Below, piece by piece: positions 22,033-35,570 of a DNA stretch of 64,000 bases. The DNA is from Stappia indica. GTDB lineage: Bacteria > Pseudomonadota > Alphaproteobacteria > Rhizobiales > Stappiaceae. The notes below the pieces were generated by a model that had not been told where the DNA came from, made no database searches, and was given only the letters and a program-made list of their open reading frames with translations. A program made the translations under genes and the position numbers. Each line of letters starts with the position of its first letter. Within the stretch, counting starts at the first letter, position 1. The stretch lies in NCBI RefSeq assembly GCF_020177335.1, contig NZ_JAIVMG010000010.1, positions 1 through 64,000 on the forward strand. Reading direction: 5' to 3'.

Positions 22033-24321
22033 TTGGACGCGAACGGACAGATCGACAGGGCCGGAAAAAGCTGGATGGGGCAGACTGTGCGCCGTCGCGA
22101 GGACCAGCGGCTTGTCACCGGCCAGGGGCGCTATGTCGACGATCTGACTCCGGAAGGCTGCCTGCATCTGGAATTCGTCCGCAGCCAGTTCGCCCATGGC
22201 GACATTGTCGAGCTGGATCTGGACGAGGCCCGCGCCCTTGATGGGGTGGTGGCGGTCTTCACCGCGGCCGATATCGCCGATCTCGGTGCGGCGGCGATCA
22301 ACCTGCTGATTCCGGATGTGCAACCTCAGCCGATGCGCGTTCTGGCGGCGGAGCGGGTCGAGGCGGTCGGCCAGCCGGTCGCGGCCATCGTCGCGACCTC
22401 ACGGGCGATTGCCCGCGATGCGGCGCAGCTCGCCGGGCTGGACATCGACGCCTTGCCCGTCGCTGCCGGTGACGAGCGCCGCGAGCTTCTGACCCATGAC
22501 TGGCGATCCGGCGATGCGGAGGCGGCCTTTGCCGCCGCCGATCATGTGGTCGGCATCACGGTCGAACATTCCCTGTTGGCGCCGATGGCGCTGGAGCCGC
22601 GCGCCGCGCTGGCCGACTGGCGGGAGGGGCGGTTGACCGCCTGGCTCTCGACCCAGACGCCGCACCGGGCGCGGGACGATCTTGCCCGCATGCTGGCCCT
22701 GCCGCTGGCGCAGGTCCGGGTGATCGCGCCGGATGTGGGTGGGGCTTTCGGCGGCAAGGCGTCGATTTATCCCGAGGATGTGATGGTGGCCTTTGCCGCG
22801 CGCCGGCTCGGCGCGCCGGTCAAGTGGTGCGCCACCCGCAGCGACGACCTTCTGGCGGCGACCCACGGGCGCGGCGCCACCACCTCCGGCGAGCTTGCCG
22901 TGGCCGCCGATGGCACGGTCCTCGGCCTGCGGGCGAAGCTTGCCTTCCAGCTCGGATCCTGGATGCCGTTCAGCGCGGTGATCCCGGCCCGCAACGCCGG
23001 GCGGATCCTGCCGGGGCCCTATCGGGTCGAGGGCATCGACATCGGCGCGAAAGGGTATTTCGCCAACCGCGCGGCCGTTGGCATCTATCGCGGCGCCGGC
23101 CGGCCCGAGGCGACCATGCTGATGGAGCGGCTGATGGACGAGGCCGCCCGCGTCCTGTCGCTCGATCCGCTGGAGTTCCGCCAGCGCAATCTGATCGCCG
23201 CCGACGCCTTCCCGTATGCGACCCCAACCGGCGAAACGCTCGATTCCGGCAACTATCAGGCCCTGGTCGACATGGCGCGGCATCATGCTGGGTACGACGC
23301 CCTGCGTGCCCGCCAGGCGGAGCTGCGCCGCGATGGCAAGATCTTCGGCATCGGCGTCAGTCTTTACATCGAGCCCTGCGGCCAGGGCTGGGAGAGCGCC
23401 ACTGCCTCGCTCTGTCGCGACGGCACGATCATCGCCGCGACCGGATCGAGCGCCCAGGGTCAGGGCCGGGAAACCGCGTTTTCGCAGATCGTCGCCGATC
23501 TGTTGCAGGTTGCTCCGGAGCAGGTGACGGTGCGCCATGGCGACACGAAAGAAAGCCCGACCGGCATCGGCGCGCTCGCCAGCCGCAGCACCGCGATCGG
23601 CGGCGGCGCCATGGTCCGGGCCTGCGAGGGGCTGCTGGAGCAGGTCCGCCGCGCCGGGGCGGAGCTCTTGCAGTGTCGCGAAGACGAGATCGTGCCGGGT
23701 GAGGCTGGCGTCTCCGTCGCCAGCGATACCGGGCGCATGGCCTCCTGGGAGACGCTGGCCGGACACCTGCTCGGACCGGAAACGGGCGATCCCAAGGAGG
23801 CGGCGCTGTGTTCCTCCGTCGTCTTCCATGCCGATGGCGAGGCCTGGGCCAGCGGCTGCTGCATTGCCACCGTCATTATCGATGAAGACACCGGCACGCC
23901 CACCATCGAGGAGGTGGTCTGGGTCGATGACGCCGGCGTGGTGCTGAACCCGATGCTGGTGCGTGGGCAGCTTGTCGGCGGCATGGCGCAGGGCCTCGGC
24001 GAAGCGCTGATGGAGCGCATCGTCTATGACGAGGACGGCCAGATGCTGACCGGCTCGTTGATGGATTACGCGGTGCCGCGCGCTGCCGACATTCCCCCGG
24101 TCCGGATCGAGAAGATCGAAACACCTTCCCCAACCAATCCGCTCGGCGCCAAGGGCGTTGGCGAGGCGGGATGCATCGGCATCCCGGCGGCCATCGTCAA
24201 CGCGGTCGGCGATGCCCTTTCTCCCTTCGGGGTGCGCGGCCTGCAAATGCCGCTCACCAGCGAACGAATCTGGCGTGCCATGCAAGACGCAGCCGGCCGC
24301 CGCAGCAACGTGGATCAGTGA
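22033..24321 (+). CDS. Molybdenum hydroxylase large subunit (xanthine dehydrogenase / CoxL family)
   Basis: A 762-aa molybdopterin-binding catalytic subunit. Landmarks are GGAFGGK (236-242), IYRGAGRPEA (351-360) and GAKGVGEAG near residue 710, with the catalytic Glu. True CO dehydrogenase carries a cysteine loop (AYRCSFR) where this protein has YRGAGR, so it is a 'form II'-type or other hydroxylase, not CO-oxidising. Members hydroxylate N-heterocycles or aldehydes with water as oxygen donor. The start is TTG at 22033 with GGAGAA six bases upstream; the ATG at 22075 is the alternative. The FeS, FAD and CoxG partners are encoded 9-11 kb downstream (33787-35570). Its stop overlaps the next start by one base. 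Confidence 0.87.
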   Translation: MDANGQIDRAGKSWMGQTVRRREDQRLVTGQGRYVDDLTPEGCLHLEFVRSQFAHGDIVELDLDEARALDGVVAVFTAADIADLGAAAINLLIPDVQPQPMRVLAAERVEAVGQPVAAIVATSRAIARDAAQLAGLDIDALPVAAGDERRELLTHDWRSGDAEAAFAAADHVVGITVEHSLLAPMALEPRAALADWREGRLTAWLSTQTPHRARDDLARMLALPLAQVRVIAPDVGGAFGGKASIYPEDVMVAFAARRLGAPVKWCATRSDDLLAATHGRGATTSGELAVAADGTVLGLRAKLAFQLGSWMPFSAVIPARNAGRILPGPYRVEGIDIGAKGYFANRAAVGIYRGAGRPEATMLMERLMDEAARVLSLDPLEFRQRNLIAADAFPYATPTGETLDSGNYQALVDMARHHAGYDALRARQAELRRDGKIFGIGVSLYIEPCGQGWESATASLCRDGTIIAATGSSAQGQGRETAFSQIVADLLQVAPEQVTVRHGDTKESPTGIGALASRSTAIGGGAMVRACEGLLEQVRRAGAELLQCREDEIVPGEAGVSVASDTGRMASWETLAGHLLGPETGDPKEAALCSSVVFHADGEAWASGCCIATVIIDEDTGTPTIEEVVWVDDAGVVLNPMLVRGQLVGGMAQGLGEALMERIVYDEDGQMLTGSLMDYAVPRAADIPPVRIEKIETPSPTNPLGAKGVGEAGCIGIPAAIVNAVGDALSPFGVRGLQMPLTSERIWRAMQDAAGRRSNVDQ

Positions 24322-25277
24322 TGAAATACACGAAGAAAGACGCCAAGGCCTATTCGCGGCAGACTATGAAGGGGATCTGGGCCGCCGCGCTGACGCCCTT
24401 CACCGAGACGCTCGCCATCGACGAGGAGGGCGTTCGCCGCAACTTCGATCACTGGATCGAGGATCTGAAGATCGACGGCTTTTTCGTCGCCGGCAAGCAG
24501 GGCGAGTTCTTCTCCATGTCGCTGGAGGAGCGCAAGCGCAGCTTCGATCTGGCGGTGGAGGCCTGTGCCGGCCGCGCCCAGACCATCATGTCCTGTTCGG
24601 ATCAGAATATGGATGTGGTGATCGACCTTGCCCGGCACGCCCAGAAGGCCGGCGCCGACTACATCGTCGTCCACGCGCCGATCCTGCACTTCTTCAAGGA
24701 GCAGGACGAAACCCTCTACAACTACTACCGCACCATCGCCGACAAGGTCGATATCGGTATCGCCTTGTGGAGCCACCCGGACAGCGGCTATCTGATGAGC
24801 CCCGAGCTGTGTAACCGTCTGGCCGATATCGAGAATGTGGTGGCGATCAAGTATAGCGTTCCCCGGCCGATGTACACGGAACTGAACCGGCTTGCGGGCG
24901 ACCGCATCCTGGTCAGCACCGCGTCGGAAGAGGAATGGCTGGACAACATCCTGGAGCTGGGCTGGCAGCTCTACCTCTGCTCCTCGCCGCCCTACCTGAT
25001 CCAGAGCAAGCATGATCTCAGGATGCGCGAGTACACGGATTTGGCGTTCCGGGGTGAGGCGGACAAGGCGCGGGCCCTGCGCGACAGTCTCGATCCGGTG
25101 CGGGCGGCGCTCAAGGGCACCCGTCCGGCGGAAAAGCCCCATGCCCATCAGAAATACTGGCAGGACCTGCTCGGCCAGGTCGGCGGCGCGGTACGCCCGC
25201 CGATGCTGCCGCTGACGGAGGAGGAGAAGCGGGTGACCCGCGCCGCCTTCGAGGCCTGCGGATTGAAAATGAGCTGA
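24321..25277 (+). CDS. Dihydrodipicolinate synthase / N-acetylneuraminate lyase family protein
   Basis: A 318-aa class I aldolase-fold protein. The Schiff-base lysine is K177 in NVVAIKYSV, so imine chemistry on a keto acid is likely. Two family hallmarks are changed: the GTTGE loop reads GKQGE (58-62), and the catalytic Tyr of the PYY motif is missing (APILHFFKE at 119-127). It is therefore unlikely to be true DapA. In this operon it may be a retro-aldolase or hydratase-aldolase acting on a ring-cleavage product. The start overlaps the preceding stop (TGATG), so translation is coupled to the molybdenum hydroxylase subunit. Confidence 0.75.
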
Positions 25278-34767: not shown

Positions 34768-35570
34768 ACGGCTTTGCGTATCTGAGACCGGGCGATCTGG
34801 CCGAGGCGCTGGCGTTTTTGCGGGAGGGGGATGAGGCCAGCCCTTTGGCCGGCGGGCAGACCCTGGTGCCGACCATGAAACAGGGGCTGGCCGCTCCGGA
34901 GACCCTGATTGATCTGGGCGGTCTCGCCGAGCTGGCGGGCTTGAGGGTGACGCCGACCCATGTGGAGGTCGGCGCCATGTGTCCTCATGCGGCGGTTGCC
35001 GCCGCCCCTGGGGTTCGGGCGGCCTGCCCGGCGCTGGCGGAACTCGCCGGCATGATCGGCGATGCGCAGGTGCGCAATCGCGGCACCATCGGCGGCTCGA
35101 TCGCCAACAACGATCCGGCGGCGGACTATCCGGCGGCCTGTCTGGGGCTGAATGCGGTGATCCGCACAGACCGCCGGGACATTGCCGCCGATGACTTCTT
35201 CCTCGGCATGTTCGAGACCGCGCTGGAACCGGGGGAGTTGATCGTCAGCGTTGCCTTTCCGCGCTGCCGCGAGGCGGCCTATCTGAAGTTCCGCAACCCC
35301 GCCTCACGTTTCGCCCTGGCCGGTGTCTTCCTCGCCCGCCATGCAGATGGCGTGCGCATCGCCGTGACCGGCGCCGGAACGGATGGCGTGTTTCGCTGGA
35401 GCGAGGCGGAAGCGGCGCTCGGCCGCGAGTTCACCGCATCGGCGCTGGCCGGGCTGGCTGTGCCGGTGGAGGACATGCTGGGAGACCTCCACGCGGCGGC
35501 CGATTATCGGGCTCATCTTGTCAAGGTGCTGACAGCGCGTGCATTGGCGGTCATCAGCGAACGATCCTAG
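34764..35570 (+). CDS. coxM: Molybdenum hydroxylase medium FAD-binding subunit
   Basis: A 268-aa FAD subunit. The two flavin-binding blocks are AGGQTLVP (about 30-37) and [14 protein letters not shown] (about 110-123). It passes electrons from the FeS subunit to an acceptor. It is the last gene of the 22033-35570 unit. Its TAG stop interlocks with the stop of the converging gene: the four bases CTAG at 35567-35570 serve both. There is therefore no room for a dedicated terminator. Confidence 0.92.

Follow-up and report, generated by a model that had tools for sequence, protein, structure and literature searches.

The window analysed here, a stretch of 64,000 nucleotides from Stappia indica, carries at 22033-35570 an operon of 14 plus-strand genes that very probably specifies a lower pathway for 3-hydroxyanthranilate (3-HAA) operating without 2-amino-3-carboxymuconate 6-semialdehyde (ACMS) decarboxylase (ACMSD). 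In the classical meta-cleavage route, 3-HAA is processed by 3-HAA 3,4-dioxygenase (HAO), ACMSD, aminomuconate semialdehyde dehydrogenase and aminomuconate deaminase. The operon encodes the same ring-cleavage enzyme, together with a class I lyase of the dihydrodipicolinate synthase (DHDPS) family, an aspartate dehydrogenase-like (AspDH-like) enzyme and a molybdenum (Mo) hydroxylase-family protein whose place is taken in most fetched relatives by an NAD aldehyde dehydrogenase (ALDH). The most far-reaching reading of the data, to which we assign a probability of roughly 0.4, is a further decarboxylase-free route of tryptophan and kynurenine degradation. In this route, 3-HAA would be converted to aspartate and malonate semialdehyde without loss of CO2 and with the ring nitrogen kept, using a new class I hydratase-aldolase that acts on a tricarboxylic enamine and interchangeable Mo and ALDH oxidants; it would occur across the Alphaproteobacteria and in at least one gammaproteobacterium.

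The 14 genes were confirmed in the order given by an earlier note on this DNA, and all of the families named there were found. Intergenic gaps range from −14 to about +160 bp, with overlaps at five of the 13 junctions (ATG starts checked). As described in that note, the Mo hydroxylase is split, with the large subunit first and the CoxG-like, FeS and FAD proteins last; the end of the large subunit lies about 10 kb from the FeS subunit. The note's description of a catabolic operon with built-in uptake is supported, and a single LysR gene diverges from it. Just beyond the LysR gene, on the plus strand, are a kynureninase and an α/β hydrolase that were absent from the earlier gene list. Stappia taiwanensis (L038) has the full gene set in unchanged order, and 77 of the 79 other loci fetched contain the pair of lyase and HAO; the arrangement is therefore beyond chance. 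The features are as follows, with the number of the 80 named loci (defined below) that contain each.

18631-19965, plus strand: kynureninase, upstream feeder (TIGR01814, 306 bits, cut-off 246); 4/80
20024-20977, plus strand: α/β hydrolase of BD-FAE/HSL type (Pfam); 41/80
20982-21893, minus strand: LysR regulator, divergent; 63/80
22033 (TTG) or 22075 (ATG) to 24321, plus strand: Mo hydroxylase-family large subunit, proposed semialdehyde oxidoreductase; 21/80
24321-25277, plus strand: DHDPS-family class I lyase, proposed hydratase-aldolase; its start overlaps the stop of the Mo subunit
25330-25881, plus strand: HAO (NF009763, 275 bits, cut-off 220; TIGR03037, 269 bits, cut-off 146)
25953-27119, plus strand: first Liv-type binding protein (PF13458); 6/80
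27133-28071, plus strand: metallo-beta-lactamase (MBL)-fold hydrolase, lactonase-like, accessory (PF00753); 8/80
28234-29400, plus strand: second Liv-type binding protein (PF13458); 66/80
29486-30400, plus strand: LivH permease (PF02653); 65/80
30453-31436, plus strand: LivM permease (PF02653); 63/80
31433-32191, plus strand: LivG ATPase (family match); 60/80
32185-32886, plus strand: LivF ATPase (family match); 60/80
32873-33706, plus strand: aspartate-dehydrogenase-family enzyme, proposed iminosuccinate reductase (NF009828, 239 bits, cut-off 177); 60/80
33787-34275, plus strand: CoxG-like protein (PF06240); 2/80
34297-34767, plus strand: 2Fe-2S small subunit (PF01799, PF00111); 3/80
34764-35570, plus strand: FAD medium subunit (PF00941); 3/80

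Conservation was assessed in three samples. The 80 named loci are the best 80 of 481 relatives by likeness of the lyase, an uneven sample obtained with ten aligned sequences of the DHDPS-family protein as the query, in which gene presence was scored by tblastn at identity thresholds set by the analyst. Seventy are from Alphaproteobacteria, one is from a gammaproteobacterium and nine are of unresolved taxonomy; the closest lyase match among them, at 99%, is that of S. taiwanensis. The flanks are cut in 22 of these loci, leaving 58 with full flanks. The second sample comprises 61 relative genomes, including the window's own (4.66 Mb), and the third 385 genomes of the class. For the 61 genomes, the cut-offs were chosen after the tables had been seen (HAO, E 1e-70; Mo gene, 49% identity; ALDH, 67% identity), and neighbourhoods were fetched for 16 of the 24 HAO relatives. 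At least five records are common to the relatives' set and the named loci (L022/L038, L023/L079, L025/L086, L027/L083 and L031/L081).

HAO is present in 78 of the 80 loci; in 77 of these 78 it follows the lyase on the same strand at a distance of no more than 200 bp. ALDH was found in 55 loci, and the AspDH-like gene in 46 of the 58 with full flanks. Overall, HAO, the lyase, the AspDH-like gene, the Liv genes and the LysR gene proved to be co-conserved, as the earlier note would require; the first binding protein and the MBL, CoxG, FeS and FAD genes did not. A bare trio of ALDH, lyase and AspDH genes in Povalibacter (L115), with no HAO alongside, suggests an association of the three that does not depend on an adjacent HAO. 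In a Paenochrobactrum locus (L052:5301-12231), the lyase, hydrolase, transporter and ALDH are kept, no HAO was found in the fetched stretch, and open reading frames with transposase or integrase domains lie upstream.

No ACMSD was detected in the 80 loci, and a search at E 1e-50 gave no match in the window's own genome or in the 23 lyase-containing genomes of the 385, in agreement with the earlier remark that this enzyme is missing. An ACMSD encoded elsewhere in the genome was rejected on the same search. A search of the 80 loci alone with the RidA-family protein of locus L032 likewise found no RidA-type gene. Among the 385 genomes, 23 contain the lyase clade, 36 contain HAO and 22 contain both; in the one remaining lyase genome, G284, HAO had no match, and a weak lyase match in G162 (E 2e-62) was excluded, reducing the count from 24 to 23. 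ACMSD at 60% identity or more occurs in six genomes, in one of them as a partial match, and five of the six contain HAO. The lyase and ACMSD occur together in none of the 385 genomes; the probability of no overlap arising by chance is 0.005 when kinship is ignored. The 36 HAO genomes thus divide into 22 with the lyase, five with ACMSD and nine with neither, so that the lyase route may be commoner than the ACMSD route in Alphaproteobacteria.

Locus L032 (genome G049) encodes HAO, ACMSD (2hbv, E 2e-138) and a RidA-family protein, and combines them with Liv transporter genes related to those of the operon (52-68% identity) and with an α/β hydrolase (45%). This pairing suggests that the transporter and hydrolase belong to the upper part of the pathway and that the lyase, the Mo enzyme or ALDH, and the AspDH-like enzyme take the place of its lower part. 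In comparison with the classical pathway, the lyase loci have these enzymes in place of ACMSD and RidA. No description of the gene set was found in the literature, as judged by titles and the beginnings of abstracts and with subscription journals largely outside the scope, which agrees with the earlier note's statement to that effect.

Judged by profile and residues, HAO is an orthodox 3-HAA dioxygenase. It matches PDB entry 1yfu (E 2e-73), and R49, H53, E59, R101 and E112, which we take to be iron ligands and substrate-binding residues, are unchanged in 78/78 aligned rows, the window included. The C-terminal CxxC pairs are also kept, with C164 lacking in one of the 78 rows. A role for HAO mainly in NAD synthesis was rejected because NadA is encoded elsewhere in the genome.

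The Mo large subunit contains Mo hydroxylase domains, a YRGAGR motif and the Glu of GVGE. With three subunits and the Mo-site Glu, the enzyme belongs to the xanthine oxidase family, and its PDB relatives include quinoline 2-oxidoreductase (1t3q, E 8e-128), CoxL and nicotinate dehydrogenase. Unlike the quinoline 2-oxidoreductase and CoxL-type enzymes, with which it shares large-subunit domains and both motifs, the window-type Mo gene is exchanged with an aldehyde dehydrogenase. Of the 80 loci, 20 contain only the Mo gene, 54 only ALDH, one both and five neither; three of these five are among the loci with cut flanks. In the 58 full-flank loci, the Mo gene occurs in 13, ALDH in 44, both in one (counted in each) and neither in two (Fisher p 1.3e-9, uncorrected for kinship). 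The Mo gene is immediately upstream of the lyase in 21/21 loci. ALDH occupies this slot in 32 loci; in 14 it is on the same strand but downstream, in six on the opposite strand and in three farther upstream. Its GQVC motif is retained in 54/54. Consistent with these counts, 24 of the 61 genomes have a close HAO, accompanied in 16 by a locus-type Mo gene, in seven by ALDH and in one (G049) by ACMSD and the RidA-family protein, with no overlap at the cut-offs used; G053 (54%) and G060 (53%), both Mo genomes, fall below the ALDH cut-off. The Mo/ALDH label switches 13 times across a tree of 91 lyases, with at least four changes forced by starred branches (five rows were unlabelled in the count and ten labels were assigned from other searches). 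Nitratireductor has both states (Mo in L045 and L054, ALDH in L061 and L065). Since an NAD aldehyde dehydrogenase takes its place in most fetched relatives, the Mo enzyme most likely oxidises ACMS, or a derivative, at the aldehyde carbon, and is probably not a ring hydroxylase of a first step.

The lyase has the fold of the DHDPS/N-acetylneuraminate lyase (NAL) class I aldolase superfamily (predicted model, mean predicted local distance difference test score 87), and the solved folds nearest to the model are the generic neighbours DapA and NAL. The Schiff-base Lys177 is kept in 81/81 rows. Trp150 stands at the position of the NAL catalytic Tyr and Lys59-Gln60 at that of the NAL carboxylate-binding pair; all three residues are invariant (81/81). 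The lyase thus lacks the catalytic Tyr and the Ser/Thr carboxylate motif of NAL and DapA. Its NCBIfam matches are weak, to aldolases and to the dehydratase KdgD, and a plain curated DHDPS equivalog was rejected, all scores being far below the cut-offs. We read the invariant Trp150 and Lys59-Gln60 as a probable adaptation to an acidic, non-pyruvate substrate. NahE and PhdJ are hydratase-aldolases of the DHDPS superfamily that have in common with the lyase the Schiff-base Lys and the proposed addition of water followed by retro-aldol cleavage; the lyase differs from them in having Trp for Tyr and Lys-Gln at the carboxylate place.

The AspDH-like protein matches the aspartate dehydrogenase 2dc1 (E 8e-29) and contains an NAD domain, an Asp_DH_C domain and an N-x-H motif, of which N228 and H230 are kept in 61/61 rows. 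These traits are those of NadX; by contrast with NadX, the gene lies in a catabolic operon, and NadA is encoded at a distance. The genome also encodes two MmsA-type dehydrogenases over the cut-off.

From the observed genes, their conservation, the Mo/ALDH interchange and the absence of ACMSD, we infer the substrates, regiochemistry, order of oxidation and cleavage, and products of the following scheme. The Liv transporter would import a kynurenine-pathway aromatic, either 3-HAA or a precursor, and the kynureninase and α/β hydrolase would provide aminobenzoates. HAO would open the ring of 3-HAA to yield ACMS, which can be seen as an aminofumarate (the enamine of iminosuccinate) bearing a 3-oxopropenyl arm. 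Next, either the Mo enzyme or ALDH would oxidise C6 of ACMS to a carboxylate, and the lyase would add water at C4 and cut C3-C4, giving malonate semialdehyde (C3) and iminosuccinate or oxaloacetate (C4). Iminosuccinate would then be reduced by the AspDH-like enzyme to L-aspartate, so that nitrogen is retained, and malonate semialdehyde would be converted to acetyl-CoA by an MmsA-type dehydrogenase of the genome. The scheme has a step for each core enzyme, and its end products are all central metabolites. The late position that the earlier note gave to a lyase and to an enzyme handling the amino group is likewise supported. We judge an ACMSD-free bypass running in full to aspartate and malonate semialdehyde to be evenly poised between right and wrong. 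The exact cleavage by the lyase is the weaker part of the proposal and could as readily be wrong as right.

Several observations weigh against the proposed scheme. With Trp150 for Tyr and Lys59-Gln60 at the carboxylate pair, the chemistry of the lyase cannot be read from its known relatives, and no hydratase-aldolase of the NahE/PhdJ type is among the best PDB matches listed (the best 60 of 99 by sequence and the best 50 of 570 by fold). The AspDH-like gene is lacking in 12 of the 58 full-flank loci, and the operon contains no dedicated malonate semialdehyde enzyme. G053 (L023/L079), the single locus with both oxidants, has a Mo gene and a nearby ALDH of 52-54% identity (52% in L079) on the opposite strand. 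A kinship-aware test of Mo/ALDH exclusion on starred branches, limited to four pairs, was not significant (median p 0.25), with an average of 3.3 pairs in the opposite direction and 0.0 in the same direction. Finally, FeS and FAD subunits lie near the Mo gene in only three of 21 loci. Relatives of the window's FeS subunit occur in 14/14 genomes searched (11 Mo and three ALDH genomes), and the best of them outside the operon are 66-71% identical and, in both kinds of genome, adjoin a second CoxL-like large subunit. It is possible that small subunits are shared with operons lacking their own. One such second CoxL-like large subunit lies at G000:C8:207857-210837, beside an FeS subunit 68% identical to that of the operon.

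Other readings accept the same bypass and differ in its chemistry. The DHDPS-family enzyme could instead deaminate, decarboxylate or hydrolyse 2-amino-3-carboxymuconate, general enzymes completing the route. Its match to KdgD and the replacement of the catalytic Tyr by Trp are in keeping with this; the clusters common to most loci, however, include no obvious enzyme for a six-carbon 2-oxo tricarboxylate, and the frequency of the AspDH-like gene in full-flank loci fits a released C4 imine, so that we consider such a step rather unlikely. Cleavage might also precede oxidation, in which case the lyase would cut ACMS itself, yielding iminosuccinate together with malondialdehyde, and the latter would be oxidised to malonate semialdehyde by the Mo enzyme or ALDH. 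Either order uses identical genes, and on chemical grounds the enal of ACMS would favour addition of water at C4. Against this order, Lys59 at the carboxylate-binding place is a weak hint of a more acidic, already oxidised substrate, and we regard cleavage first as unlikely; as this variant shares most of our preferred explanation, the two confidences overlap.

The remaining alternatives concern a heterocycle or a hidden ACMSD. ACMS otherwise turns into quinolinate by spontaneous cyclisation, and the Mo enzyme, given its resemblance to quinoline 2-oxidoreductase and CoxL, might hydroxylate quinolinate at C6 beside the ring nitrogen, reaching in lactam form the same carbon and oxidation level as the ALDH product. 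However, NAD aldehyde dehydrogenases, its interchangeable partners, have no known activity on a ring of this kind, and the resulting pyridone would need opening, for which no conserved enzyme was recognised; this seems decidedly improbable. The earlier note had the Mo enzyme hydroxylating an N-heterocycle with a water-derived oxygen before an HAO-like protein cleaved the ring, a reading to which the quinoline and nicotinate enzymes among the PDB relatives lend some colour. Hydroxylation as a first step was rejected because the Mo gene exchanges with ALDH, and with HAO an orthodox 3-HAA dioxygenase by profile and residues, this reading is very improbable. Of the substrates suggested there, the aromatic amine, as 3-HAA for ring cleavage, stands and the N-heterocycle does not; nor does MBL hydrolysis as a core step, which was rejected on the presence of the gene in only eight loci (its AidB profile score of 104 bits is below the cut-off of 360). 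That the operon serves the ordinary 3-HAA pathway with ACMSD encoded elsewhere is barely credible: operons can be split, but ACMSD was not detected in the loci, in the window's own genome or in the other lyase genomes.

The genes that would feed the operon vary. A relative of 1H-3-hydroxy-4-oxoquinoline 2,4-dioxygenase (QDO; 3ibt, E 2e-75) and an MHPCO-like FAD monooxygenase lie upstream of the operon in 13 of the 80 loci, which suggests that 8-hydroxy-4-quinolones such as xanthurenate are an entry to 3-HAA there. In L040 (5919-8795) and 12 other loci, the FAD monooxygenase, the quinolone 2,4-dioxygenase and an α/β hydrolase form a candidate 4-quinolone (xanthurenate/kynurenate) catabolic module. 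By contrast, QDO was found at E 1e-40 in none of the 61 genomes, the window's own and 60 relatives, in a search without a positive control, and a quinolone feeder in this genome was rejected on that basis. Tryptophan 2,3-dioxygenase is encoded elsewhere in the genome. The α/β hydrolase matches kynurenine formamidase (4e11, E 8e-13), with lipase 9n8r and other esterases scoring higher; our guess is a formamidase or amidase. A benzoate-CoA-ligase-like gene, below its cut-off, occurs in three loci. Among the 16 loci fetched from relatives, five (L024, L028, L029, L035 and L037) have a TRAP transporter near the core genes in place of Liv, and so does L111 among the 80. Feeders that vary by lineage before a fixed back end support 3-HAA as the probable point of convergence. 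The lyase locus L109 (11537-20946) also encodes a member of the FAA-hydrolase family, and its final, incomplete gene, of the class V aminotransferase family, is a possible kynureninase.

In genomes with HAO and no ACMSD, the ring-cleavage product has been without an explained fate, and the proposal provides a lower pathway that can be tested. It would also assign a function to a so far unassigned DHDPS clade and a catabolic role to an aspartate dehydrogenase-like protein, and the loci are a clear example of a Mo enzyme and an aldehyde dehydrogenase replacing one another.

A promoter scan returned 0 sites (1.4 in shuffles), and terminator-like sites were near the shuffle mean. Elsewhere in the window, a separate aromatic amino acid cluster on the minus strand (41489-47109) comprises homogentisate 1,2-dioxygenase, a fumarylacetoacetase-family gene, an FAD-dependent oxidoreductase (PRK08132 family) and an MBL-fold gene. 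Two separate pairs of γ-aminobutyrate (GABA)-type aminotransferase and aldehyde dehydrogenase genes lie at 141-3025 and 8335-11111, and a DctP-type (TRAP) binding protein is encoded close to the first pair.

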